This document shows, in pieces, positions 5,170 to 18,584 of a stretch of 42,827 bases of DNA (within the stretch, counting starts at the first letter, position 1; every line of letters starts with the position of its first letter). Both the position numbers and the translations under genes were made by a program. Origin of the DNA: an uncultured Bacillota bacterium (lineage in GTDB: Bacteria > Bacillota_I > Bacilli_A > RFN20 > CAG-288); contig CASFYT010000019.1 of NCBI GenBank assembly GCA_949299015.1, positions 1 through 42,827 on the forward strand, in the 5' to 3' direction. The notes beneath the pieces were generated by a model. It saw only the letters and a list, made by a program, of their open reading frames with translations, was not told where the DNA came from and ran no database searches.

Positions 5170-5949
5170 ATGGAGACAGAAATATTTAACAATATTAATG
5201 AAGTAATCCAGTATCTGAATTCCTTAACTTGCCAAAATATCATTTTCCGTGGTTTCACGAAAAAACAAGAACTAATTCCACAACTTTTTCGCCTTAATTT
5301 AGCATCGGAAGAATTTGATTTACTAAAAGAATTTGAAAAGTATGCCAAGCTTTTTGCAAGCCCGACCAGTGCGCAAGAATTTTACTTTCTCTGTCAACAT
5401 TTCGGCCTTCCTACTCGGTTGTTAGACTTTACTACGAATCCTTTTGTCGCTCTGTTCTTTTCAATTAATCAGGACCCTGAACCCGAAGATGACATTTATA
5501 AAATCCTATATGTTAATGATAATAAATACACCCCTATTCAAATCGATGTAGGGGCAACCGATATCAGACATGCTTTTTTGAGAAAAGAAATTATCGAAAT
5601 CAATCAATACGATTCTTATACTGAAGAGATTAAAGGTTGGTTAAACAGGAAGAGATTGCCTAGTCAATTTCCAGTCATTTTCCCCGCGACTATTACTAAT
5701 CAAAGAATATTTGCTCAACAAGGCCTATTTTATATTTCGCTTCAAAAGCAAGAATCGTTTGACCCTGAAATTTTGATTAGTCTTGGCACAATTATTCGAA
5801 TTAATAAAGCCTTAAGAGAACCTTTGTTAGAATATTTGGCAAATATTAGTATAGATTCAATTCATCTTTTTCCAGGATTGGATACCTTGGCGGCTAAATT
5901 AAAGAAGAAACATATGGAGAATACTTCGGGTAAAAATCGGGCTAAATAA
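5170..5949 (+). CDS. FRG-domain protein
   Basis: A 259-residue soluble protein with the FRG domain: the signature FRGF at about residues 35-38 (NIIFRGFTKKQ), then a helix-rich stretch, then FYFLCQHFGLPTRLLDFTTNPFVAL (about 76-100), the conserved QHxGxPTRLLDxTxNP block. The domain has an ADP-ribosyltransferase-like relationship in family descriptions and is frequent in phage-defence neighbourhoods, but its activity is largely unknown to me. The remainder after about residue 130 is unassigned. The gene has a GGAG site ten bases before the ATG and is the last AT-rich gene; the XRE regulator starts ten bases after its stop with much higher GC, so the cargo boundary may lie here. Confidence 0.8.
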   Translation: METEIFNNINEVIQYLNSLTCQNIIFRGFTKKQELIPQLFRLNLASEEFDLLKEFEKYAKLFASPTSAQEFYFLCQHFGLPTRLLDFTTNPFVALFFSINQDPEPEDDIYKILYVNDNKYTPIQIDVGATDIRHAFLRKEIIEINQYDSYTEEIKGWLNRKRLPSQFPVIFPATITNQRIFAQQGLFYISLQKQESFDPEILISLGTIIRINKALREPLLEYLANISIDSIHLFPGLDTLAAKLKKKHMENTSGKNRAK

Positions 5950-5959
5950 GAGGCGAATT

Positions 5960-6355
5960 ATGAACGAGAAAGTCAATGAACAGCTGGCTGTCGAGATTGG
6001 CAAGAGACTGCTGGAGTTGAGGGAGGACGCGAAGATTTCCCAGATTCAGCTTTCGAAGGAACTCGGTGTGAGTCAGAACGCCATCTGGAGATATGAGAGC
6101 GGAACGAACTATCCCCCTTATGACGTGCTTATCGGATACGGGAGGTTCTTCAACGTCTCCATCGACTGGATCCTTGGAAGATGCATGGATCGGTCCGGAA
6201 TTCTCTATTCGGGGATTCCCCAGAATACGAAGCAGAAGGTCGACCACTATATCGGGCAGGTCCTCGACATGGACTCGCCGATGATGAAGGAACTCCTTCA
6301 GGCCATCGACGAGATGATCGACAGGAAACTGAAGGAAAAGGAGAAAAAGAAGTAA
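5960..6355 (+). CDS. XRE-family helix-turn-helix regulator
   Basis: A 131-residue DNA-binding protein. Residues about 10-65 are a classic Xre/Cro HTH (SQIQLSKELGVSQNAIWRYESG) followed by the usual LIGYGRFFNVSIDWILGR segment; the rest is a helical, probably dimerising tail ending in Lys/Glu repeats. It starts ten bases after the FRG gene with AGAGG upstream and ends 12 bases before the recombinase gene, so it probably forms an operon with it and controls excision or cargo expression. The GC-rich codon use matches the recombinase and the chromosome, unlike the defence genes before it. Confidence 0.88.
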   Translation: MNEKVNEQLAVEIGKRLLELREDAKISQIQLSKELGVSQNAIWRYESGTNYPPYDVLIGYGRFFNVSIDWILGRCMDRSGILYSGIPQNTKQKVDHYIGQVLDMDSPMMKELLQAIDEMIDRKLKEKEKKK

Positions 6356-6367
6356 CGGGAGGATTGG

Positions 6368-8098
6368 ATGGCACCTAATACGGAAGCTAGGGAGAAGAAC
6401 CGTGCTGTAATCTACGCTCGTTTCTCCTGCGACAAGCAGAGGGAGGAGTCCATAGAGGGACAGATTCGCGAGTGCATGGCTTTCGCCAGGAACGAGGGCT
6501 TTACCGTCGTCAAGAATTACGTGGACCAAGCCATCTCGGCGAGAACGGATGACAGGCCACAGTTCCAGCGAATGATAAATGACGCCAGGGGTCACGGCTT
6601 TGACGTGGTCATGGTCTGGAAGGTGGACCGCTTCTCCCGCAGCCGTTACGATGCCTTGAAATACAAGGCCATCCTCAAGCAAAACGGAGTTAGGCTGATC
6701 TTCGCGACGGAGGCGATATCCGACGGTCCGGAAGGAATCCTTCTGGAATCCGTCCTAGACGGCTTGGCCGAATACTATTCCGTCGACCTCTCCGAGAAGG
6801 TGTCCAGAGGCATGACGGAGAACGTGCTCAACGGAAAGAGCAACGGCGGCATTCCGACCTTCGGCTTTGCCACCAAGGACGGGAAGATCGTCATCGACGA
6901 GCATGACGCTCACGTCGTCCGTGAGCTCTTCCGTCTCTACACCACGACCGGCGTGACCTCGCACGGCTTGGTGAAAGTCCTGGAAGAGAGAAGTTTGACC
7001 CGAAAGAACGGGAAGCCCCTCTGCTCCGGGACCATCAACCACATCCTGAGGAACGAGCGTTATTGTGGGATCTTCAAGTTCCGGGAGATCGTCAACAAGA
7101 CCACCGGCTTTCCTCGGATAATCGACGATGAAACTTTCAATAGGGCCCAGGACAAGCTTTCTCGCAACAGAAAGCAGACCGGGACGCATACCGCCAACAC
7201 GCCCTATGCGCTCTTCGGGAAGGTCTATTGCGGATACTGCGGTGACCTCGTCCGGGCCTATGCCGGAACCTCCTCCACCGGCAAGGAGCACTTCTACTAT
7301 CGTTGCAGGGCCTCCTCCCTGAAGAAGGATTGCCAGGGCAGGGCCATCGACAAGAACCTTCTCGAAATGACCGTGATGGATGAGATCCAGGACTATCTAT
7401 CCGATGACAAGACGCTCCGTGAGGCAGCTAAATATCTGTATGAAAACCAGATTGCCGGGACACCCTACAGAAAGGCGCTGGAGGCGAAGAGAGACGATCT
7501 TGAAAAGAAGATCGAGAACATCCTCGGAGCCATAGAGGGCGGGGCGAAATTCAACGTGTTCCAGGAGCGTTTCCAGAGGCTGGAGGTGGCGAGAAAATCA
7601 GTCCTGTCGGAAATCGAAAGGGAGAAGATCGACAACCCCGTCCTGGAGCAGGAAGACATCTATCAGCTCCTGAGTTCCTTCAAGAAAATCGACACGACCT
7701 CCACCGACGGAATACAGCTCCTCTTCAATATTTTCGTCAAGGAGGTAAAGCTGTATAATGAAAAAGTAGAGATTTTCATCAATTTCAGGCCAAAAAAGCC
7801 TAGAAAAAGGCTAATCGAGCGTTCAAACGTCGCACAGGATGGTTCACCACGCGAGAACATGCCAGCCTACCCGGTTGGCTTTTTTCGTCACCACAATCCC
7901 GAGGGCCCCTTTCCAAGACGGCTTTGTCCTACGCCGAGCCCGTCGGTCCGGTCCCCCCTTTGGCTCTTGTGGTCCTCGCAAGCGAAGAAAAGTGAGGACC
8001 GGCCTGTCGGATTCGAGGGGGCGCGTACGCCGGAAACCTCGAGAGGCCGACTCGTTCTCGACCTGATGGACAAGGTGTCTGCCAGGAATCGATCCTAA
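6368..8098 (+). CDS. Large serine recombinase (integrase/transposase)
   Basis: The frame is 576 codons. Residues 10-150 form the serine resolvase catalytic domain: YARFSCDKQREES carries the nucleophile serine (about Ser18), and VWKVDRFSRSRYD holds the conserved Asp-Arg pair. A recombinase domain follows (about 165-300), then a zinc ribbon with two Cys pairs (VYCGYCGDL and a CRASSLKKDC block, about 288-323), and a coiled coil (about 355-430). It catalyses site-specific integration and excision of the element. The family-like part ends near FINFRPKK (about 470). The last ~100 codons are low-complexity, unlike family sequences, and contain a stem-loop terminator at 7861-7885. The true stop may have been lost by frameshift or by recombination at an attachment site. 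GGGAGG lies eight bases before the start. Confidence 0.9.
   Translation: MAPNTEAREKNRAVIYARFSCDKQREESIEGQIRECMAFARNEGFTVVKNYVDQAISARTDDRPQFQRMINDARGHGFDVVMVWKVDRFSRSRYDALKYKAILKQNGVRLIFATEAISDGPEGILLESVLDGLAEYYSVDLSEKVSRGMTENVLNGKSNGGIPTFGFATKDGKIVIDEHDAHVVRELFRLYTTTGVTSHGLVKVLEERSLTRKNGKPLCSGTINHILRNERYCGIFKFREIVNKTTGFPRIIDDETFNRAQDKLSRNRKQTGTHTANTPYALFGKVYCGYCGDLVRAYAGTSSTGKEHFYYRCRASSLKKDCQGRAIDKNLLEMTVMDEIQDYLSDDKTLREAAKYLYENQIAGTPYRKALEAKRDDLEKKIENILGAIEGGAKFNVFQERFQRLEVARKSVLSEIEREKIDNPVLEQEDIYQLLSSFKKIDTTSTDGIQLLFNIFVKEVKLYNEKVEIFINFRPKKPRKRLIERSNVAQDGSPRENMPAYPVGFFRHHNPEGPFPRRLCPTPSPSVRSPLWLLWSSQAKKSEDRPVGFEGARTPETSRGRLVLDLMDKVSARNRS
7861..7885 (+). terminator. Rho-independent terminator inside the recombinase frame
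   Basis: GCCAGCC, a five-base loop, GGTTGGC (seven pairs, one G-U), then TTTTTT. It lies about 100 codons after the end of recognisable recombinase sequence and before the frame's nominal stop, suggesting that transcription of the recombinase normally ends here. Confidence 0.6.
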
Positions 8099-8299: not shown

Positions 8300-8329
8300 T
8301 TGACAAAACTTTCGGGGGGGGGGTAGATT
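8300..8329 (+). promoter_or_regulatory. Promoter of the SipW-type operon with poly-G spacer
   Basis: TTGACA (8300-8305) and TAGATT (8324-8329) are separated by 18 bases, of which the last ten are an uninterrupted G run. The first gene of the operon starts 31 bases downstream after an AGGAGG site. Change of tract length by slippage would move the boxes from 18 to 17 or 19 bases apart and alter promoter strength, as known for poly-G/C spacer promoters in other bacteria. Confidence 0.7.
8314..8323 (+). repeat. Homopolymeric G(10) tract
   Basis: Ten consecutive G directly before the -10 hexamer. It is the longest mononucleotide run I noticed in the window and a likely slippage site. Confidence 0.85.
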
Positions 8330-8360
8330 TTTTCCGAGAAATTCAGGAGGTTCTATTCGT

Positions 8361-8975
8361 ATGAAAAGAAAGCATTTCTCTTTGTTGGCCGTCGTTCCTG
8401 CCTTCGTCCTCGTCTCGGTCGTCGGCGCGGGCTTTGCCACGTGGTACTGGCAAGAACAGAGCGATATGGATCTTGCGGCCAATGTCATCGTCACGGACGA
8501 AGTGACCAACGGCTTCACGGTTGCCGTCAAGGACAGCAAGACGGCGCAGTTGGTCCTCGACCAGGCAGATGACACGAATCACCCCGATTCGGATCCGGCC
8601 CGTGGCGTCTTCCTCGGCTACACCGACTGGGAGACCAATAACTTCACGGGTACGGATGGCATCACCGTCACGGTCAGCCACTCGGGCGAAGTCACGGGTG
8701 CGACCCTTCACTGCATCGCCAGCTGGACGGGAAGCAACACGAATGCCGATACGCATCTTACCCTGACCAAGACGGAGTTGACGACAGCGCTCACATTTAC
8801 GGGCTCGGACGCCACCTACACGGACGACGTCACGATCGGCGCCAAGAGTGGCGATATCAACCTCGGCATCCACTATGTCACCGAGCCGACGGAATCCTCA
8901 ACCTACAACACGATGAAGACTGAGCTTGAAGGCCTGACCCTGACCCTCAACTTCTACGTCACTGTTTCCGAATAA
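8361..8975 (+). CDS. Secreted protein with SipW-type signal (TasA/CalY-like), paralogue 1
   Basis: A 204-residue exported protein. Basic start (MKRKH), hydrophobic core about residues 8-22, then the motif VGAGFATWYW (21-30) that recurs in three other proteins of this operon and resembles the GGGTWAAF end of TasA/camelysin signals processed by SipW. The mature part is acidic, Thr/Ser/Asp-rich and β-rich, as expected for an extracellular fibre or matrix subunit. It shares QL-[VI]-[LF]-DQ, PARG-[VI], DGI-x-VTV and a YV-x-EP block with the protein at 12848-13528, so these are paralogues. As first gene before a strong stem-loop it is probably the most highly expressed product. AGGAGG precedes the ATG. 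Function as a structural matrix subunit is inference. Confidence 0.75.
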   Translation: MKRKHFSLLAVVPAFVLVSVVGAGFATWYWQEQSDMDLAANVIVTDEVTNGFTVAVKDSKTAQLVLDQADDTNHPDSDPARGVFLGYTDWETNNFTGTDGITVTVSHSGEVTGATLHCIASWTGSNTNADTHLTLTKTELTTALTFTGSDATYTDDVTIGAKSGDINLGIHYVTEPTESSTYNTMKTELEGLTLTLNFYVTVSE

Positions 8976-9013
8976 CGTCGACTCTTTGTTTCGATTGCTT
9001 TGACTGCGAAAGC

Positions 9014-9046
9014 GAGGGAGGGGCTTCGTCGGCCCTTCCCTCCTTT
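9014..9046 (+). terminator. Stem-loop attenuator between substrate 1 and the signal peptidase
   Basis: An 11-pair stem (GAGGGAGGGGC with GCCCTTCCCTC, loop TTCGTCG) is followed by only a short CTTT. It lies in the 100-base gap between the two genes. Weak termination here would make far more of the first secreted protein than of the peptidase and downstream proteins, or the stem may protect the upstream message. Confidence 0.65.
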
Positions 9047-9075
9047 GGCATCGGTTGCCATTTACGGAGTGACAT

Positions 9076-10170
9076 ATGGGGATTGACAGTTCTTTGATCG
9101 TTGCCATCGTCGTCCTCGTTCTCTTCGGGTTCGTCTACTTCTGTCTGTTCATCGGAATGTACCGATCTCGGAAGAGAACGCTTTTTGCGCGTCTGGAAGA
9201 CGATGCCATCGAACAGGAAATCTATGAAGAATATACCGAGTTCCAGACCGACTACGAGAACATGACCTTCGAGGAGTTCCTCCGGCGGGATGAGCGCAAG
9301 AGCAAGAGGGCGACCATCGTCTCGGGAATCTTCTGCCTTCTGGTCTCCCTTCTCTGCGTCGGCGTCCTCGCCTTTGGCATGGTCGCCCGCAGCCGCGGGG
9401 ACCAGGTCTTCTTCGGCGACACGGCCGTCCTCGTCGTCCGTTCGGGTTCGATGCAGGAGAAGAACGACAGCAACCGATACCTTTTCGAGAACGGCCTGGA
9501 CGACCAGATCGACGTCTACGAGATGATCACGATCACCCGCGACCTCTCGCAGATCGACCTCTACGACATCGTCGCCTTCGAAGGGCGGAACGGCGAGACC
9601 GTCGTCCATCGCCTGGTCGGCATCGAAGAGACGGAAGACGGGAAGACTCTCTACAGCTTCCGCGGCGATTCCAACGCGGCTTCCTTCGACTGGGAGATGC
9701 GCGTCACCTCCGACCGCCTCATCGGCGTCGACACGGGCTTCCGCAACCTGTTCCTGGGTCAGTTCGTCGTCTACCTCCAGTCCGCGATCGGATTGATTTC
9801 CGTCGTCGTCGCCGTCATCGTCGTCGTCAGCTACTATATCTATTGCAGCCTCGCCGCCAAGATGTACGTGGAGCGGCGCAAGGCCCTGGCCAAGTGGGCC
9901 TTCGTCAACACGCTCAAGTGGGAGGAGATCAACCGCCGCAAGGCGCTCAACGAAACCCTTCTGGAGGGCCTGGAGCCCTTCTCGCTCCATCAGCGCGTCC
10001 TGGTCCTCGTCGGGAGGGAGGGCTATCATGCCGGCGACGTCGGCGTGATCGTCCGGTTCCCCGAGGAAGGGAAGGCGCTTTTGCAGATGGAGGAGGGGGC
10101 CAACCTCGTTGAATACCCGGTGAAGGAGCTTTCTTCGCTTCCGCCCTCGGCAAAGGAGCTTCTGGGATGA
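9076..10170 (+). CDS. sipW: SipW-like type I signal peptidase (S26B) with extra domains
   Basis: A 364-residue membrane peptidase. Topology: helix about 6-28; acidic cytosolic segment 36-75; helix 79-103; extracellular catalytic domain; helix 236-262; cytosolic C-terminus. The catalytic part has VRSGSMQ with nucleophile Ser125 and VVHRLVG with His178 in place of the Lys of ordinary signal peptidases, the mark of SipW/eukaryote-type enzymes, and FRGDSN (Asp198). It should remove the unusual signals of the four secreted proteins encoded around it. Known SipW proteins are near 190 residues; here there is an added N-terminal helix and a C-terminal tail with a KOW/SH3-like β module (about 304-352, VLVLVGREGYHAGDVGVIV). 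It overlaps the next gene by ATGA. Confidence 0.85.
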   Translation: MGIDSSLIVAIVVLVLFGFVYFCLFIGMYRSRKRTLFARLEDDAIEQEIYEEYTEFQTDYENMTFEEFLRRDERKSKRATIVSGIFCLLVSLLCVGVLAFGMVARSRGDQVFFGDTAVLVVRSGSMQEKNDSNRYLFENGLDDQIDVYEMITITRDLSQIDLYDIVAFEGRNGETVVHRLVGIEETEDGKTLYSFRGDSNAASFDWEMRVTSDRLIGVDTGFRNLFLGQFVVYLQSAIGLISVVVAVIVVVSYYIYCSLAAKMYVERRKALAKWAFVNTLKWEEINRRKALNETLLEGLEPFSLHQRVLVLVGREGYHAGDVGVIVRFPEEGKALLQMEEGANLVEYPVKELSSLPPSAKELLG

Positions 10171-10823
10171 GGTGGAGGCCCCGCTTCGCCCTTCCGGCGC
10201 TCGTCATCGCCCTTTCGGTCGTCGGCGTCGGATATGCGACGTGGTATTTCGAGGATTCCCAATACCAGGAGATCGTCATCGACGAGACGGAGATTCGCCT
10301 CTCGGCCAAGGCGACGGTCGGAACGATCGACCTCGTCGTCGAGGAAGGCTACGGCGAGGATCCGGACAAGGCCGAAGGAGACAACCCGGAACTCATCCTC
10401 ATCCTGGAACAGACCTGGGTGGGATTCGACGACCAGGTCATGGCCCGCTTCACGCCCTCCTACGACATCGCCGACGGGCAATACGTCTATCCGGCCTTCC
10501 AGAACTATGTCTTTCAGATGACCGTCCAGATCCGCGGCGGCCTGGAGTCCTACCTCGAGGCGCTGATGGATGCGGGAACCGAAGGAACCGCCCTGGAGGA
10601 AGGACAGTACGTCTTCGACTGGAGCTGGAGCGAGGCGGAGCGGGACAGGATCCTCCAGGCAGAGGGAGGCAGCGATGCCACCTATTCCTTTACTCCCGAA
10701 TTGACGTTCCGCTACAAGGCGGGCATGGTCCCGGAGGACGAGGCGGACTTTCAGAACCTTCTCTCGGCCAGCCGGGGGAGCAGCATCGAACTCTCCTTTG
10801 CGGTCGACTATCAGGAGGCGTGA
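10167..10823 (+). CDS. Secreted protein with SipW-type signal, paralogue 2
   Basis: A 218-residue exported protein whose start overlaps the signal-peptidase stop by four bases, so the two are translationally coupled. Basic start MRWRPR, hydrophobic residues 8-19, then VGVGYATWYF (19-28), the operon's shared signal motif. The mature part is strongly acidic and aromatic. Its C-terminus (LLSASRGSSIELSFAVDY) matches the end of the protein at 12848-13528 (LSSSRCSLSFTLVEL), indicating a common fold, probably a β-sandwich. No catalytic motif is seen. It could be a minor or anchoring subunit, like TapA relative to TasA, but that is analogy only. The next gene follows after three bases with GGAGG. Confidence 0.7.
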   Translation: MRWRPRFALPALVIALSVVGVGYATWYFEDSQYQEIVIDETEIRLSAKATVGTIDLVVEEGYGEDPDKAEGDNPELILILEQTWVGFDDQVMARFTPSYDIADGQYVYPAFQNYVFQMTVQIRGGLESYLEALMDAGTEGTALEEGQYVFDWSWSEAERDRILQAEGGSDATYSFTPELTFRYKAGMVPEDEADFQNLLSASRGSSIELSFAVDYQEA

Positions 10824-10826
10824 GAC

Positions 10827-12851
10827 ATGAAGAAGACCCTTCTTTCCCTGACCAGCGCCCTTCTCTCCCTGGGTGCCATCGTCGGCATCGGTTTTTCGGC
10901 CTTCTATTTCACGAACGGCGGAAGGGTCTCGGCGGAGGACGAATTCGTCCCCCACGTCGACAACCTCCCGGACAACTCTTCGCTGGACAATCAGGAAGAT
11001 TATTATACCGTTCATTTCTTTCCCCAGCCGCGTGCTGCCGGGACCAATATTTATTCAGAAATACAAAGCGATGCTACAGCTTTGGCAAATGGCTATCGAT
11101 TGGAAGAGAATCCCTTGAATGCCATCAATGAAAATACTGAAAACTCTCGAGATCAATATTACTTTGTCAGTGGTACCCCCAATCGTGAAAGGTGGAGCGA
11201 TGGGCAAGAATATGTATCTGCGAATCGTTATATTCTTACCTACTACGCCTATTTTGGTAATTCTGTATGGGGGAATGGTGGAGATTATCTCGGATATTGG
11301 GGCGAAGGAACAAATCGCTTTCAGGTCAAGTCGACAAGCGTCTATCGTTACTTGAATCGGGATACAATTCGTTCGATCGGAACTCCTTCATGCGCCCGGC
11401 GCGATAATGGAGACATTTTTGAACTACGCTTTGCTGGTTGGACTTACAATCAAAGAGTTGCCGCCACGATGGGATACGGACGGATGGGAGATTTCCAACT
11501 CTTCAACCCTTCTTTGCCACTCGAATACTACGACAACCTACAGGGAGAGAACGGAAAGGGTATCGATGGTTCTGAGATGGGAGACAACGTTCTCTATCTT
11601 TACCCAATCTTTACGACAGGACTAGATTATTCGCAGGTTTGTGTCAGTAGAAACATAACCGCTGGAAGCCCGATTAAAAGCAGTGACTTGCCACGAACTC
11701 CTTATCATGTATTTCGTTTAGGCTCATATTATGGCGATGAAGCTGGAAGCTCTAATAATTGGGAAGAAAATTACTTTTCGACCTTAGGTGAAGGAAATGA
11801 CCTTTTCATTCGGCGAAACGTCTCCTTGAGTCCTGCTGATGTCTCCAACGAAAAGAACTATCGTCTCGAATATAATCTGGCGGATCGGGATACTGATGAG
11901 GTATGGAGTGGGAACTGGAATCGTCCAACGAATTTCTCTATTGCGAGTGAAGGCATCTATGATGTGGCAATCTGGTATTCGTCCGGCAGTTCTCTGACGG
12001 AAGACAAGGCGCTTCAGGCAATTCGAGATGCAGGATTCACGCACTATAGCACGACGACGGTGAACAACAACGTCCACATTTATGTCCAGAAGAACTATGA
12101 TTTCAAACTCGTTGGAGGGAGTACGGCGTTGACCTATGACGAGAGCGGGTACTATTTCACGCAGGACACTGATTCCGACTCGGATACCTTTGTTGTCAAC
12201 GACGTATATTTTCCTGGAGAAGACAATTTCCACTCTCTCGAAATTGAAGGAATTGGCAACTTCAGGAACTATGTTTTTTCTGTCGGATCCGAAGTGGACT
12301 GGAGAAACCGGACTTACCAGGTATCCATTGCGCCTGATTCAGCGGAACTTCTTGCGAAGGCAGTCAATGGAGAGGATTATCGCTACGAAAATGGACAGGA
12401 AAATCCCAAATTGCTCAAGGTAAAGGAAAGAGGCATGTATGATTTGACGATTCATGTCACCCGAGTCTATGGTGACCCGAGCGCGATTGGAACCGTCATG
12501 GTCTCGATTCAGCCTTCAAATTCCGAACACTGGATTCGTATCTACGAAAGCCAATCGGACATTCGAACGGACTCGCGAGGTTTCATCGACTACGACAGTA
12601 GCTCATCCCCCCTCTATTCTGTCGATGTATCGGTTCAAGGTGGCGTCGTCCAGCAGGTGACTCCTGAGACCGTCTTCACCGCTCGAGATGGTACGACTAC
12701 CATGCTCTCGGCCATCCTTGCCAACGACAATGTCCTTTATGACTATGTGACGGGAAGAAGGTTTCGTCTGGATGACTTCGAGGATTCTACAACTCCCTTT
12801 ATGGCATCGAAGTCCTATGTCTTCTATCTCCAGCCGGAGGTGACAAGATGA
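10827..12851 (+). CDS. Large secreted protein with SipW-type signal
   Basis: 674 residues. Signal: MKKTLL, hydrophobic core to about residue 20, then VGIGFSAFYF (19-28). The rest is a long extracellular region rich in Tyr, Asn, Asp and Ser with many short β-like segments; there is no LPxTG motif, C-terminal membrane helix, catalytic motif or repeat I can identify. Repeated use of the operon's signal and the ATGA overlap with the next gene mark it as a partner of the smaller proteins, perhaps an adhesin or tip protein. From about 11040 to 12800 the DNA is clearly less GC-biased, with freer codon choice, than the flanking genes or its own first 60 codons, which suggests recombination or rapid diversification of the exposed part. 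Confidence 0.7.
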   Translation: MKKTLLSLTSALLSLGAIVGIGFSAFYFTNGGRVSAEDEFVPHVDNLPDNSSLDNQEDYYTVHFFPQPRAAGTNIYSEIQSDATALANGYRLEENPLNAINENTENSRDQYYFVSGTPNRERWSDGQEYVSANRYILTYYAYFGNSVWGNGGDYLGYWGEGTNRFQVKSTSVYRYLNRDTIRSIGTPSCARRDNGDIFELRFAGWTYNQRVAATMGYGRMGDFQLFNPSLPLEYYDNLQGENGKGIDGSEMGDNVLYLYPIFTTGLDYSQVCVSRNITAGSPIKSSDLPRTPYHVFRLGSYYGDEAGSSNNWEENYFSTLGEGNDLFIRRNVSLSPADVSNEKNYRLEYNLADRDTDEVWSGNWNRPTNFSIASEGIYDVAIWYSSGSSLTEDKALQAIRDAGFTHYSTTTVNNNVHIYVQKNYDFKLVGGSTALTYDESGYYFTQDTDSDSDTFVVNDVYFPGEDNFHSLEIEGIGNFRNYVFSVGSEVDWRNRTYQVSIAPDSAELLAKAVNGEDYRYENGQENPKLLKVKERGMYDLTIHVTRVYGDPSAIGTVMVSIQPSNSEHWIRIYESQSDIRTDSRGFIDYDSSSSPLYSVDVSVQGGVVQQVTPETVFTARDGTTTMLSAILANDNVLYDYVTGRRFRLDDFEDSTTPFMASKSYVFYLQPEVTR

Positions 12852-13528
12852 AGAAGAGATTCTGGACCACTTATCTCCTCCCCGTCGGAATCATCGGCTC
12901 GGTCGTCGGCGTCGGCTATTCGGCATGGTATTTTGCCGACGGGTATTCGACGCTGGGCGTCGGCGTCGAGGTGACCTACCTCTCGACGGTCAACAACTAT
13001 GAGATCCTCTATCAGGGCCAGAGCACCCAGCTGATCTTCGACCAGACGGAGGAGGGACGGACGGCAGCGGGCGGAAACGTGACGGGAGCCGGCCCGGCCC
13101 GGGGAATCCACTTCCACGTGGACGAGAGAGAAGGAGACGGCATCCATGTCACCGTCCAGACCCGCGACCGCAGCGAGTGGGCCGACGTCCCCGTCGCACT
13201 CAGCTACGAGATGACGCTCACGGGGCTCGACGGCCTGGCGTCCCTTTCCTATCCGAGCGGCTACTTCGACAACCAGGAGAATACCTGGCACCAGATGGGA
13301 GAAAGCGCGGGGCGGATCGACTGGGATTCGGCCGAGACGATCGAGAAGGAAAACGAGGTGACCGGACTCATGGAGACGTGGTATCGGGTGGAGGTTCCCT
13401 TCACGGCCGAAACCTGCGGCCTGTCCTACGTGGACGAGCCCTCGGACGATGCCGAATACGAAGCCTTCCAGTCGGCCCTTTCCTCTTCCCGCTGCTCCCT
13501 GTCCTTCACCCTCGTCGAACTGCACTGA
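12848..13528 (+). CDS. Secreted protein with SipW-type signal, paralogue 3
   Basis: A 226-residue exported protein, start overlapping the preceding stop by ATGA. MKKR, hydrophobic residues 9-20, then VGVGYSAWYF (20-29). The mature part resembles paralogue 1 along its length: TQLIFDQ, GPARGIHFHVDE, GDGIHVTVQT, LSYVDEPSDDAEY and a final hydrophobic strand. Two cysteines near the end (in AETCGLSY and SSRCSLSF) could form a disulphide outside the cell. Last gene of the operon, followed by a strong terminator. Likely a second fibre or matrix subunit; role inferred. Confidence 0.72.
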   Translation: MKKRFWTTYLLPVGIIGSVVGVGYSAWYFADGYSTLGVGVEVTYLSTVNNYEILYQGQSTQLIFDQTEEGRTAAGGNVTGAGPARGIHFHVDEREGDGIHVTVQTRDRSEWADVPVALSYEMTLTGLDGLASLSYPSGYFDNQENTWHQMGESAGRIDWDSAETIEKENEVTGLMETWYRVEVPFTAETCGLSYVDEPSDDAEYEAFQSALSSSRCSLSFTLVELH

Positions 13529-13542
13529 CCTGACTTGTCATC

Positions 13543-13579
13543 GGAGGAGAGAGCCTTCCGGGCCCTCTCCTCCTTTTTC
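13543..13579 (+). terminator. Terminator of the SipW-type operon
   Basis: GGAGGAGAGAGCC pairs with GGGCCCTCTCCTCC around TTCC and is followed by TTTTTCTT. A strong rho-independent terminator 14 bases after the last secreted-protein gene. Confidence 0.9.
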
Positions 13580-13600
13580 TTCGGGAGAGCGAAGACCTTC

Positions 13601-13629
13601 TTAACATCATCTTTACTTTTTGATATAGT
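13601..13629 (+). promoter_or_regulatory. Promoter of the phosphate transporter operon
   Basis: TTAACA (13601-13606), 17-base spacer, TATAGT (13624-13629); the transporter gene starts 27 bases later behind a G-rich ribosome binding site. No Pho-box-like repeats were evident. Confidence 0.6.
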
Positions 13630-13656
13630 GTAGCCGTGTAATGAGGGGGGATCCCT

Positions 13657-14841
13657 ATGACCATGCTCGCGGATGCGGTCGAAAGCGTCAACTACGTCAC
13701 GATCGGTCAGTTCTTTTCCCTTCTCTCCTCGAGTCCCTTGATCGTCATCACCATCCTTCTGGCGCTCGGCGTCGTCTTCATCAACGGATGGACCGATGCC
13801 CCCAATGCGGTCGCGACCTGCATCTCGACGCGCGCCATCTCGGCCAAGAAGGCCATCCTGATGGCGGCGGTCTTCAATTTCCTCGGCGTCCTGCTCTTCG
13901 CCCTTTTTGCGGCGGGCGTCGCCGAGAGCATCGCCGGAATCGTCGACTTCGGGTCCCTGGACAATCCGGAAGTCGCCAAGGAAGCCTTGGTCGGCATCTC
14001 TTCCGGCATGGTCGGCGTGGTCTCCTGGGGCATCCTCGCCTGGGTCTTCGGCGTGCCTTCGAGCGAGAGCCACGCCCTGATCGCCGGCCTGACGGGAGCC
14101 TGCTTCGCGATGATGGCGATGGGGAAGTCGGCGACCCCGGGTGCCGAGAGCTGGATCGACGTCGGCATCGGATTCCTCGTCTCCTCCCTCCTCGGGGCGC
14201 TTTTGGGCTTCGCCCTTGTCAAGTTGATCGAACTCGTCTGCCGGAAGAAGACCCGGAGGAAGACGACGGTCTTCTTCAAGTGGGCGCAGATCGCCTCGGC
14301 GGCGGGGATGGCCCTGGCCCATGGGGCCCAGGACGGCCTGAAGTTCATCGGCATCGTCTACCTGGCCCTGTTCCTGGGAAGCGTCGCCTATCCTGAGGCG
14401 ATGGTCGTCGACGGGGTCCACTACCTGTTGGAGAACCCGACGACTCCGGGCTTCGCGATGGAGTTCCTCCACGCCCCGGTCTTCCTCTGGCTTCCGATCC
14501 TGGTCTCCCTGGTGATGGGACTTGGCACTTCGATCGGCGGCTATCGGATCATCAAGAAGGTCGGCATGGGGATGGTGGACCTCGAGCCCTACCAGGGCTT
14601 TGCGACCGACCTGGCGGCCTTCGTGGCCCTGGTCCTCTCCAGCGCCCTTTCCTGGCCGGTCTCGACCTCTCAGGTCAAGACGTGCTCGATCGTGGGCGTG
14701 GGCCTCTCCAAGGGAGTGAAGAAGGTCAACTGGTCCATCGTCAAGGACATGGTCCTGACCTGGGTCTTCACCTTCCCGGGTTCGATCCTGATCGGTTTTG
14801 CGATGTGCTATCTGCTCTTTGCCATACCGGGCATTGCATAG
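13657..14841 (+). CDS. pit: PiT-family inorganic phosphate transporter
   Basis: A 394-residue membrane protein with about ten hydrophobic segments. It has the PiT signature twice: INGWTDAPNAVATCISTRAIS near residue 45 and, in the second half, AHGAQDGLKF-type and ATDLAAFVALVLSSALSWPVSTSQVK segments. It imports phosphate (as metal phosphate) with a proton or cation. It is followed after ten bases by a DUF47/PhoU-like gene, the standard partner that modulates PiT transport. The start at 13657 has AGGGGGG upstream; an alternative ATG two codons in is possible. Confidence 0.93.
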   Translation: MTMLADAVESVNYVTIGQFFSLLSSSPLIVITILLALGVVFINGWTDAPNAVATCISTRAISAKKAILMAAVFNFLGVLLFALFAAGVAESIAGIVDFGSLDNPEVAKEALVGISSGMVGVVSWGILAWVFGVPSSESHALIAGLTGACFAMMAMGKSATPGAESWIDVGIGFLVSSLLGALLGFALVKLIELVCRKKTRRKTTVFFKWAQIASAAGMALAHGAQDGLKFIGIVYLALFLGSVAYPEAMVVDGVHYLLENPTTPGFAMEFLHAPVFLWLPILVSLVMGLGTSIGGYRIIKKVGMGMVDLEPYQGFATDLAAFVALVLSSALSWPVSTSQVKTCSIVGVGLSKGVKKVNWSIVKDMVLTWVFTFPGSILIGFAMCYLLFAIPGIA

Positions 14842-14851
14842 GAGGTGAAAG

Positions 14852-15490
14852 ATGGGTTTGTTCCAAAAAAAGAAGACCAACTATTTCTTCGAGCAGTTCA
14901 CCCGCGTGGGCTCCTATTCCCAGAAGGCGATGGAAAAGGTCCTGGAGGGCCTGAGGAACTTCTCGGCCATCGACGTCGTCCAATGGAAGAACGAGGTCCA
15001 CGAGATCGAGCATGAGGCGGACGTGATCAAGCACGAGACGGAGGAACGCCTCGCCAAGGAATTCATGACGCCGATCGACCGCGAGGACATCTTCCTTCTC
15101 CTGGACAACCTGGACGACCTCACGGACAGCATCGACGAGATCTCCTACAAGCTCTACCTGCGGGACTACCGGGAGCTTCCGGAGAAGACGCTTCTCTTCG
15201 CCGAGGTGGCCAACCGCGCCGTCCTCTCCCTCCAGGAGGTCCTCCAGAACCTCGACTCCCTGACCAACAAGAAGCTGATGGATCCCCTGATCGAGCGGGT
15301 CCGGGACATCGAGGAGGAGGCCGACCGCCTCTACGAGGAGAACGTCCACGAGCTCTACCGCAACATCTCTCCCGAGCGGGACTTCGAGATCCGGCTCTCG
15401 GAGAAGCTCTACGGGCTCTTCGAATACGTCACCGACCAGTGCCGGGACGTGATCAAGACGATCGAAATCATCATCTACAAGAATCTGTGA
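14852..15490 (+). CDS. DUF47 (PhoU-like) regulator of phosphate transport
   Basis: A 212-residue, almost fully helical cytosolic protein of the YkaA/DUF47 family. It opens with [15 protein letters not shown]; acidic E-x-x-x-D type clusters ([10 protein letters not shown] about residues 53-62; [14 protein letters not shown] about 75-88; [12 protein letters not shown] about 151-162) are the metal-binding repeats of PhoU-like folds. It is translated from an AGGAGGTGA site directly after the pit stop and probably gates or regulates that transporter. No terminator of quality follows. Confidence 0.9.
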
Positions 15491-15554
15491 GCCCTTTCCT
15501 CTTCCCCATCCCCGTTGTGGTAAAATGATAGACGGTATACATGGGAGGAAACAC

Positions 15555-16304
15555 ATGACCAAGTTAGTTTTGATCCGCCATGGCGAGAGCGAGTGGAACA
15601 AGCTCAACCTCTTCACGGGCTGGACCGACGTCGACCTTTCCGAGAAGGGGCACGAGGAGGCGACCAACGCCGGCAAGCTCCTGAAGGAAGAGGGCTATCA
15701 GTTCGACATCGCCTTCACCTCCGTCCTCAAAAGAGCCATCCACACCCTTTGGCACGTCCTCGACGGCATCGACCAGGACTACCTGCCGGTGGTCAAGGAC
15801 TATCGCCTCAATGAGAGGCACTACGGAGCCCTCCAGGGCCTTAACAAGCAGGAGACCGCCGAGAAGTACGGCTCCGAGCAGGTCCACCTCTGGAGACGTT
15901 CCTTCGACGTCGCCCCTCCGAAGCTCGAACCGACCGATGACCGAAACCCGGCGAAGCAGGCCCACTACAAGGGAATCGACGAGAAGGACCTTCCGCTCTC
16001 CGAGTCCCTCAAGGACACCATCGCCCGCGTCGTCCCCTACTACAATTCCACCATCCTTCCGGCGATGAAGGAAGGAAAGAGGGTTCTGATCGCGGCGCAC
16101 GGCAATTCCCTCCGCGCCTTGGTCAAGTACCTCGACGACATCTCGGACGAGGACATCGCCGGCCTGAACATCCCGACGGGCGTCCCCCTCGTCTATGAGC
16201 TCGACGACGAGTTCAAGCCCATCCGCCACTACTATCTCGGCGACCAGAGCGCCATCGAGGCCAAGATCAACGCCGTCAAGAACCAGGACAGCACGAAGAA
16301 GTAA
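15555..16304 (+). CDS. gpmA: 2,3-bisphosphoglycerate-dependent phosphoglycerate mutase
   Basis: 249 residues, normal length. The active site is complete: [12 protein letters not shown] (phosphohistidine at about His9), [12 protein letters not shown] (about 87-98) and [17 protein letters not shown] (about 180-196). It interconverts 3- and 2-phosphoglycerate in glycolysis. The start is chosen at 15555, with GGGAGG eight bases before; an in-frame ATG 30 bases upstream would add a non-homologous leader. A single-gene unit: a strong terminator follows. A weak TAAAAT-type -10 lies near 15521. Confidence 0.96.
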
Positions 16305-16373: not shown

Positions 16374-18584
16374 ATGAAGCACAAGTTCCTACTGCCGCTC
16401 TTCCTCTTCCTGCTTTCCTCCTGCTCCCAGACCCTCTCCACGACCTCGGCCTCCTCTTCGCTGTCCTCCCCGTCCGACGATTCCTCGACCTCTTCCCTGG
16501 CGGAAAGGACGCTCACCCTTCAGGAGACGGGGGAGAAGTTTCCCTTCTTCGACCAGTACGAACGCCTCTCCCTGGAAGGCGTCGTCGTCCTGCTGGACGA
16601 TGGCTCTTCGAGGCAGGACGTGACCGACGAGGTCCAGCTGATCCGGGACGAGGACGGACAGGTCCTCTCCTCGGGCGCGGTCCTGGACCGGGCCGGAACC
16701 TTTCCGGTCCACTTCGAGTGCCAGGGCCTGAGGACTTCCTCCTTCTATCTGGCCGTGGATTCGGTGACACACTATTCCACCGCGCTCTCGACCTCGCTCG
16801 ACGACACGCGCTTTTCGCTCGGCGACACGCTGGCGAAGAAGGACGTCGCCGTCACCGCCGACGTGAGCTATACGAAGTCGGACGGGGAGAACGTCCGCCG
16901 GAAGGAAGACGTCGAGGAGTTCCGCCTCTTTGTCGACCGGAAGGAGGTCGAGAGCTATCGTTTTTCCGCAGCCGGTTCCCATCTTTTGACCATCACGGCG
17001 TACGGAAACGATGGCACCTTGTTATCTTGGAGCCGGAACATCCGAATCATGGACGGAGATGGAACGGCACAGGAATATGAAGACGACACGATACCGACCT
17101 ATGTTGACGATACGAAGATGACCGTTCATATCGAGAATCCGTCCCGCTCGAGCAACGTCGATCCCTTGGGAATCGACCCGGAGAACAAGGGCTATTACAC
17201 GCCCGAGGAGGTCGAGCTGGCCTACACGATCTACGACTACGGGGAGAAGAACGTCTACAACTGGAAGTACGCGCCGGCGGTGCGCGAAGGGGGCGTCCAG
17301 AAGACGCCGGTCCTCGTCGTCCCGGTCCTCGTCCCGGGCGCCACGCTGACGTCCTATGAGGAGCGCTCGGCCCTGGAGACGATTCAACAGGCCTTCTTCG
17401 GGCGCAGCGGGGACATGAACTACGAATCCCTCCGCTCCTACTTCGTCCAGTCCTCCTACGGCCAGCTGGAGTTCACGGGGCTGGTGACGGACGTCTTCCG
17501 GGCGGAAAGCGACTCCTCCTTCTATCGAAGCCTCTTCTCGCTCACCTACGGAAACTTCCCGGACCTGGCACAGGAATGCGCCGACTTCGCCCAGGATCAG
17601 GGCGTCGACCTCACGACCTTCGACAGCGACCATGACGGCCTGATCGACGCGATGTGGCTGGTCTGGATCGGCTGCGGGTACGACGCCTCGACGATCTACT
17701 GGCCCTTCTCGACCATGAACCCGGTCTCTCCCGATCCCGACCGCGAAGTCCCCCTCGTCAACAACATCGGCTGGTGCGGTCTGGACTTCATGGAAGGGTT
17801 CTCCCCCTCAAATCCCGTCGACGCCCACGTCGTGATCCACGAGACGAGCCACATGCTGGGCCTCGCCGACTACTATTCCTATACGGACCAGACCTATTCG
17901 CCGATGGGCAACGTCGACATGATGAACATGAACGTCGGCGACCACAACGCCTATTCCAAGCTCCTCCTCGGGTGGAGGACGCCCTATCTGGTCTACGGAA
18001 ACGACGTCGAGATCACGCTCTCGAGTTCCGTCACCTCCGGGGACATGATCGTCCTTCTCGACGACGAGAGCACCTTCCGGGCCAACGAGGAGGGCGACAA
18101 GGTCCTCTTCAACCCCTTCGACGAGTACCTCGTCCTCGACTACTACACCGACCAGGGCAAGCTCGCCGGCCAGGAGTACGACGCCTACCAGACCGCCCCG
18201 ATCGCGGGCCGGGGAGGACGCCTGCTCCACGTCGACAACCGACTCTTCTCCGTCGACCGGAGGACGAGGGAGGCGACCCTCCTTGCGGACAGCGCCCTGG
18301 CCTTCACGGACGCGGTCTTAGACCCCTACAAGGGAATCGACAACAGCTTCGGGCAGTACGACCAGAACTTCCGCCTCGACGAGGAATTCGGCGAGATGGA
18401 CGAGGTCCGGCTGATCGACCAGGCGGGCCGCTACCTCTCGCTGTACACGCCTCCCGACGAACGGACGCTGTTTGGTGAAGGGGATTCCTTCTCCCTGGCG
18501 CGCTACAGGACCCAGTTCCTCGACGGGGCGCTGGACGGCGGTGAGGATTTTTCGACGACGTGGACGATCGAGACGATCGGGTGA
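16374..18584 (+). CDS. Lipoprotein zinc metalloprotease, M6-like
   Basis: A 736-residue cell-surface protein. Lipobox LLSSC puts the lipidated cysteine at Cys17 after a hydrophobic signal; a Ser/Thr-rich tether (20-45) follows. Residues about 50-225 look like β-sandwich domains. The catalytic region begins near 290 and contains the zinc motif HETSHMLGLADYYSY (about 489-503), close to the immune inhibitor A (M6) form HExxHxxGxxD. A D-x-D-x-DG segment (FDSDHDGLID, about 415-424) could bind calcium. It probably degrades extracellular proteins for nutrition. AAAGGAG lies eight bases before the ATG; cyclophilin follows 16 bases after its stop. Confidence 0.85.
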   Translation: MKHKFLLPLFLFLLSSCSQTLSTTSASSSLSSPSDDSSTSSLAERTLTLQETGEKFPFFDQYERLSLEGVVVLLDDGSSRQDVTDEVQLIRDEDGQVLSSGAVLDRAGTFPVHFECQGLRTSSFYLAVDSVTHYSTALSTSLDDTRFSLGDTLAKKDVAVTADVSYTKSDGENVRRKEDVEEFRLFVDRKEVESYRFSAAGSHLLTITAYGNDGTLLSWSRNIRIMDGDGTAQEYEDDTIPTYVDDTKMTVHIENPSRSSNVDPLGIDPENKGYYTPEEVELAYTIYDYGEKNVYNWKYAPAVREGGVQKTPVLVVPVLVPGATLTSYEERSALETIQQAFFGRSGDMNYESLRSYFVQSSYGQLEFTGLVTDVFRAESDSSFYRSLFSLTYGNFPDLAQECADFAQDQGVDLTTFDSDHDGLIDAMWLVWIGCGYDASTIYWPFSTMNPVSPDPDREVPLVNNIGWCGLDFMEGFSPSNPVDAHVVIHETSHMLGLADYYSYTDQTYSPMGNVDMMNMNVGDHNAYSKLLLGWRTPYLVYGNDVEITLSSSVTSGDMIVLLDDESTFRANEEGDKVLFNPFDEYLVLDYYTDQGKLAGQEYDAYQTAPIAGRGGRLLHVDNRLFSVDRRTREATLLADSALAFTDAVLDPYKGIDNSFGQYDQNFRLDEEFGEMDEVRLIDQAGRYLSLYTPPDERTLFGEGDSFSLARYRTQFLDGALDGGEDFSTTWTIETIG

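Follow-up and report, generated by a model that had tools for sequence, protein, structure and literature searches.

Known SipW-type operons serve the regulated formation of biofilms or pellicles. In Bacillus subtilis (tapA-sipW-tasA) and B. cereus (sipW-tasA-calY with CapP), a dedicated endoplasmic reticulum (ER)-type signal peptidase is encoded in one operon with its secreted substrates, the cut sites carry aromatic residues at P2 and P2', and the systems are sortase-independent. TasA assembles by strand exchange (PMC9674648). In Clostridium perfringens, sipW-bsaABCRSD brings SipW and several secreted proteins together in one operon, which is under the BsaRS two-component system and temperature, and the polymer-forming BsaA needs SipW (PMC7395162). 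Here we analyse a five-gene SipW operon at positions 8300-13578 of contig CASFYT010000019.1 (42,827 nt, hereinafter the window), which is the entire contig C19 of a 1.14 Mb genome (19 contigs, about 85% complete) from a small gut bacterium of the Bacilli, with Candidatus Scatoplasma merdavium among the named relatives in its Genome Taxonomy Database (GTDB) family. In the uncultured order RFN20, two families are predicted to lack peptidoglycan, and the order to lack sortases (PMC10868615).

The window operon shares with the Bacillus operons the dedicated ER-type peptidase encoded beside its substrates, the aromatic P2 and P2' residues and sortase independence, and with sipW-bsaABCRSD the combination of SipW with several secreted proteins. 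It differs from the former in that its substrates have no detectable TasA/M73 sequence similarity and include one large hypervariable partner, its promoter contains a poly-G tract and its genome has no detectable P-type signal peptidase I, and from the latter in having a promoter homopolymer and no regulator gene. In Bordetella fim, the length of a poly-C homopolymer in the promoter of a surface-fibre gene affects expression (PMC1891110), but those are Gram-negative chaperone-usher fimbriae, whereas the window holds an S26B-dependent Bacilli operon with a candidate switch. Set beside the sipW-tasA and bsaA systems, it stands out by a candidate switch in the promoter, a fast-varying large protein and the apparent lack of P-type signal peptidase I. 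On balance, we favour the reading that the operon encodes a phase-variable, sortase-independent surface-fibre system (pilus or matrix filament) of the sipW-tasA / sipW-bsaA kind.

The five genes lie on one strand between a promoter and a terminator, several of them overlapping by a few bases, and the limits that the original prediction had given for the operon are correct at both ends:

8300..8329, + strand: promoter, with −35 TTGACA (8300-8305), an 18-nt spacer ending in G10 (8314-8323) and −10 TAGATT (8324-8329); candidate phase-variation switch
8345..8350, + strand: ribosome-binding site AGGAGG, read from sequence
8361..8975, + strand: P1, small secreted subunit, 204 amino acids; signal VGAGFA/TWYW, predicted cut at the slash
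9014..9043, + strand: stable RNA hairpin between P1 and sipW; z −3.6 in the window, −2.2 in the copy of the nearest relative (L051, genome G010)
9076..10170, + strand: SipW-type (S26B, ER-type) signal peptidase, 364 amino acids; Ser125/His178/Asp198
10167..10823, + strand: P3, small secreted subunit, 218 amino acids; signal VGVGYA/TWYF, predicted cut; start overlaps the sipW stop
10827..12851, + strand: P4, large secreted partner, 674 amino acids; signal VGIGFS/AFYF, predicted cut; ends conserved, middle hypervariable (about 11050-12850)
12848..13528, + strand: P5, small secreted subunit, 226 amino acids; signal VGVGYS/AWYF, predicted cut; start overlaps the P4 stop
13543..13578, + strand: intrinsic terminator, a long G+C stem (hairpin 13543-13573) followed by T5

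In the mechanism we propose, Sec would export the four proteins, whose atypical cut site has Gly at P3, an aromatic residue at P2, Ala or Ser at P1, a small residue at P1' and an aromatic residue at P2', and the operon's own ER-type (S26B) peptidase would remove the signals. The three related beta-rich small proteins would then assemble into a filament, by analogy with TasA most likely through strand exchange via the freed aromatic N-terminus, with P4 as an exposed adhesive or antigenic component forming its variable outer part, and slippage of the G tract between the −35 and −10 elements would switch expression. Within this scheme export of the four proteins by the operon is well supported, and we infer the exact cut site, fibre assembly, a tip or surface location for P4 and, in a single strain, on/off switching.

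The original prediction had reported four secreted proteins with a variant signal motif, and all four open reading frames (ORFs) exist. In all six frames of the window the strict motif has four occurrences, one each in P1, P3, P4 and P5 and none elsewhere, at residues 19-30 directly after the hydrophobic core. Among 3,856 ORFs of the genome (at least 80 amino acids, all frames), the looser form G.G[FY][AS].[WF] near the N-terminus has six matches, namely the four operon proteins, a substrate encoded at a second SipW locus and an isolated ORF. A signal model built from 16 such signals was searched at 57 loci centred on SipW homologues, and its positives lie on the SipW strand within 5 kb (85 of 703 ORFs), with none of 518 ORFs on the opposite strand over the same distance and 5 of 842 farther from SipW; the 16 training signals are counted among the positives, and the strand contrast is independent of them. 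Shuffled sequences give no match to the model below E=1. Over 87 carriers, G occupies P3 in 84, F or Y stands at P2 in 80 of the 85 with a letter there, A or S at P1 in 84 of 85 and W, F or Y at P2' in all 84, while P1' is variable and usually small. The resemblance to TasA signals that had been pointed out is confirmed, in that the motif aligns gap-free to the TasA cut site GTWA/AF (aromatic P2, Ala/Ser P1, aromatic P2'), and position relative to that site is what places the predicted cut in the window proteins. In TasA, Trp at P2 and the aromatic residue at P2' hinder the P-type enzyme LepB (PMC10269814). The curated 34-position SipW-cognate signal model TIGR04088 matches nothing in the genome, even at E=10, and none of 34 small subunits. 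With a cut-site pattern of aromatic P2 and P2' and genetic linkage to SipW, the signals nevertheless form a SipW-cognate class in the functional sense. Persistence of the motif in homologues, which had been set as a test, is borne out: it is kept at the SipW loci of relatives, tied to them by neighbourhood and strand. The motif is part of a wider signal class at SipW loci across the order and not unique to the window operon, and its cut-site pattern can serve to search for substrates that escape curated models.

The peptidase noted earlier, which lies between the motif ORFs, is indeed of the S26B type. Ser125 and His178, and also Asp198, are invariant in 13 homologues; the protein has the Ser-His pair without the P-type Lys and S26B sequence similarity. 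It matches SipW and archaeal-type signal peptidases and, by sequence, also ER-type human SEC11 in the Protein Data Bank (PDB). Because its profile scores (NF046067, 40.8 bits; TIGR02228, 33.7 bits) are under the curated equivalog cut-offs (190 and 51.85, respectively), we regard it as a distant S26B member and not an equivalog. Two further SipW loci, on contigs C13 and C2 of the same genome, each have their own nearby substrates. The second SipW operon (L032 7623-13318, G000 C2) encodes two small substrates whose signal is shorter (GFATWI / GYASWV), then SipW, and after it an AAA ATPase that has membrane segments, together with a partner protein; the third locus (L031 8013-10189, G000 C13) has one 363-amino-acid substrate candidate with a different signal, VGMGLAAATLP. 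A tree of SipW sequences clusters by locus type (7 changes versus 27.8 when shuffled), with types set by eye and some lacking a visible signal; locus type A is not one clade, and we give the grouping little weight.

P-type signal peptidase I was sought across the GTDB family. No true PF10502 match occurs in this genome or the other 22 family genomes, the sole weak match (in G020) overlapping a SipW homologue, and TIGR02227 is above its cut-off in 0 of 23; LspA, a comparable small membrane protease used as a control, was found in 21 of 23, and PF10502 is present in most other families of the order. This pattern, together with the three SipW paralogues in one genome, would also be expected if the lineage had lost its P-type enzyme and used SipW for signal cleavage in general, the operon being a housekeeping export set and not a dedicated one. 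We consider that unlikely, since SipW falls under the cut-off used in 8 of the 23 family genomes and is thus not universal or universally required, motif ORFs hardly occur outside SipW neighbourhoods, and the promoter looks switchable. The P-type enzyme appears to have been lost across the family while most members retain S26B paralogues, so that how the two enzyme types share the work can be tested directly.

The small subunits had been described as three mutually related proteins, an account borne out directly for P1 and P5 (mature parts, hhalign probability 91.7%) and for P3 only via intermediates. The chain runs through small subunits of other loci (P3-S36 97.2%, S36-S57 95.8%, P5-S57 99.2%), and direct mature-part similarity is not significant for P1-P3 (0.9%) or P3-P5 (21.5%). 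Against Pfam and NCBIfam, no family is found for P1, P3 or P5 at a meaningful score; matches to NapE and Vma12 reflect the hydrophobic helix, and the others are weak and due to chance. PF12389 (TasA/camelysin) has no match in the genome, and the corresponding mature-part hhalign probability is 0.05%. SipW operons carry up to five or six related small subunits.

P4 homologues occur at SipW loci with this kind of signal. Of 279 genomes from the order, 44 have one, and the 14 genomes positive for the family in a sample of 296 from across the class all belong to the order. Identity to the nearest relative, G010, is 42.4% for P4, compared with 95.1% for SipW, 96.3% for P3, 94.2% for P5 and 81.2% for P1, and DNA identity, above 90% beforehand, falls to 32-51% across about 11050-12650 and then returns to more than 92%. 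Two other pairs follow the same trend: G003/G012 (SipW 89%, P4 56%) and G024/G036 (SipW 98%, P4 78%, with one small subunit at 49%). Silent cassettes feeding P4 variation were considered and rejected, P4 being single-copy in its own genome. Along window 8300-16300, the operon and the adjoining phosphate-transporter and phosphoglycerate-mutase-like genes share 94-98% identity with L051 of G010, except P1 and P4, and the remaining shared contig has 57-87% amino acid identity. Being more alike to G010 than the rest of the contig, this 8.3-16.3 kb block looks recently exchanged, likely as a recombination tract, and the middle of P4 looks like a different allele within it.

The promoter spacer consists of AAACTTTC followed by G10, the only G/C run of at least 8 in the window. 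Across a near-complete tiling of the 1.14 Mb genome, there are 64 G/C runs of length 6, four of length 7 and seven of length 8-10. The observed decay from length 6 to length 7 serves as the yardstick for this excess, because a first-order Markov model (about 67 runs of at least 8 expected) is far above the observed counts even at length 7. Five of the seven long tracts, the window operon's among them, lie directly 5' of predicted secreted-protein or lipoprotein genes. The other four (G8-G9; L199 12866, L223 16491, L178 2324 and L193 18827 of the same genome) precede genes for a secreted GH2 enzyme, a BspA-type leucine-rich-repeat lipoprotein and two further lipoproteins, so the tract-fronted genes possibly form a set of switchable surface proteins. 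The remaining two lie 5' of the C2 SipW operon and within an N6/N4 DNA methylase gene (L193 1038-2654, G000 C17), where a G8 near the 5' end marks a candidate phase-variable methyltransferase (phasevarion).

At SipW loci including those of relatives, 22 such runs occur, 17 or 18 of them, by our reading, upstream of the first operon gene, and 8 of the 22 score at least 10 of 12 for −35/−10 elements compared with 15 of 5000 random positions. At one orthologous site G003 has G8 and G9 is found in G012, with identical flanking hexamers, so that a homopolymer in the −35/−10 spacer differs in length between orthologous sites, as is characteristic of a slipped-strand promoter. In 351 kb of the relatives' DNA away from SipW there is one long run, a G8 inside an Eco57I-type methylase gene (L240 1340-3028, G010 C3). 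At L065 and L066 the SipW genes stand directly behind G-tract promoters (TTGACA-18-TACACT and TTGACA-15-TATAAT), and these loci have repeated large substrates VVVGSGFAVWNFE. Given the rarity of long tracts, their placement in promoters, the layout common to related operons and the G8/G9 difference at an orthologous site, the operon is, from its sequence, probably phase-variable by slipped-strand change of the G tract. No report of a phase-variable SipW operon was found in the literature searched, which left out most subscription papers.

Several observations weigh against a phase-variable fibre system. The tract-length differences are between species and not within a strain, metagenome assemblies can misstate the length of homopolymers, the tract at the C2 SipW locus lies in a poor −35/−10 context (6/12), and about two thirds of SipW loci have no G tract. 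The divergence of P4 in the window pair could be explained by one recombination event. Mature small subunits have no profile similarity to sampled M73/TasA-type proteins, and Foldseek and VIA-align searches with two low-confidence AlphaFold2 models (predicted local distance difference test, pLDDT, 51.8 for a mostly beta mature small subunit, and 40.1) gave no significant match and none that is TasA-like. The models are too poor to name a family or exclude one from fold, and the absence of TasA from the listed structural rows is not counted as evidence.

The first of these points, with the G8-G10 tracts standing directly before the −10 element in several promoters, would suit a proposal that keeps the operon as described and makes the G tract a fixed promoter element, such as a protein-binding site or spacer stiffener, with no slippage switch. 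We think this improbable: in the genome itself runs of 7 are rare and runs of 8-10 in excess, tract length varies while the best-scoring sites keep a spacer of 15-18, and a DNA methylase gene, which is a classic location for a slippage switch, contains another tract. The fold results bear on a different proposal, in which SipW would release four soluble proteins forming a secreted enzyme or complex, with P4 as the active part, and no fibre. The models give no fold or fibre evidence, and P4 has no recognised anchor or adhesive domain; yet no Pfam or NCBIfam enzyme domain reaches a meaningful score in any subunit, the operons carry multiple related small subunits, and known SipW operons point to polymers (PMC7395162, PMC9674648). 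A soluble complex is the least likely of the alternatives considered here.

Of the lineage-specific matrix or fibre export operon first proposed, the self-contained, lineage-restricted, SipW-type organization with related small subunits and a large partner stands, but a fibre or a TasA-like fold is not established. The poly-G promoter, the hypervariable P4, the two additional SipW loci and the lack of a detectable P-type signal peptidase I go beyond it. The broader proposal, a phase- and antigenically variable sortase-free fibre system in a lineage devoid of P-type signal peptidase I, in which ER-type SipW enzymes are the sole type I signal peptidases and each paralogue has its own substrates, is tentative, and we hold it somewhat more doubtful than not. 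If the preferred fibre reading is true, a slippage-switched SipW operon with a fast-changing large surface protein would give the Gram-positive lineage an equivalent of phase-variable fimbriae, and the way in which reduced-genome gut commensals of the Bacilli vary their surface would be explained.

The hairpin that separates P1 from sipW, which the G010 copy shares, is a candidate attenuator or stabiliser that may set the ratio of P1 to the other products, by analogy with C. perfringens, where read-through after bsaA has been described (PMC7395162). Directly upstream of the operon, window 5170-8098 encodes an FRG-domain protein, a helix-turn-helix regulator and a large serine recombinase. Since G010 has nothing corresponding to the left 8.1 kb at the syntenic place, this stretch looks like an inserted element ending near the operon promoter. 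On the other side, window 16374-18584 encodes a lipoprotein that weakly matches M6 (immune inhibitor A) peptidase and shares 62% identity with its G010 copy.

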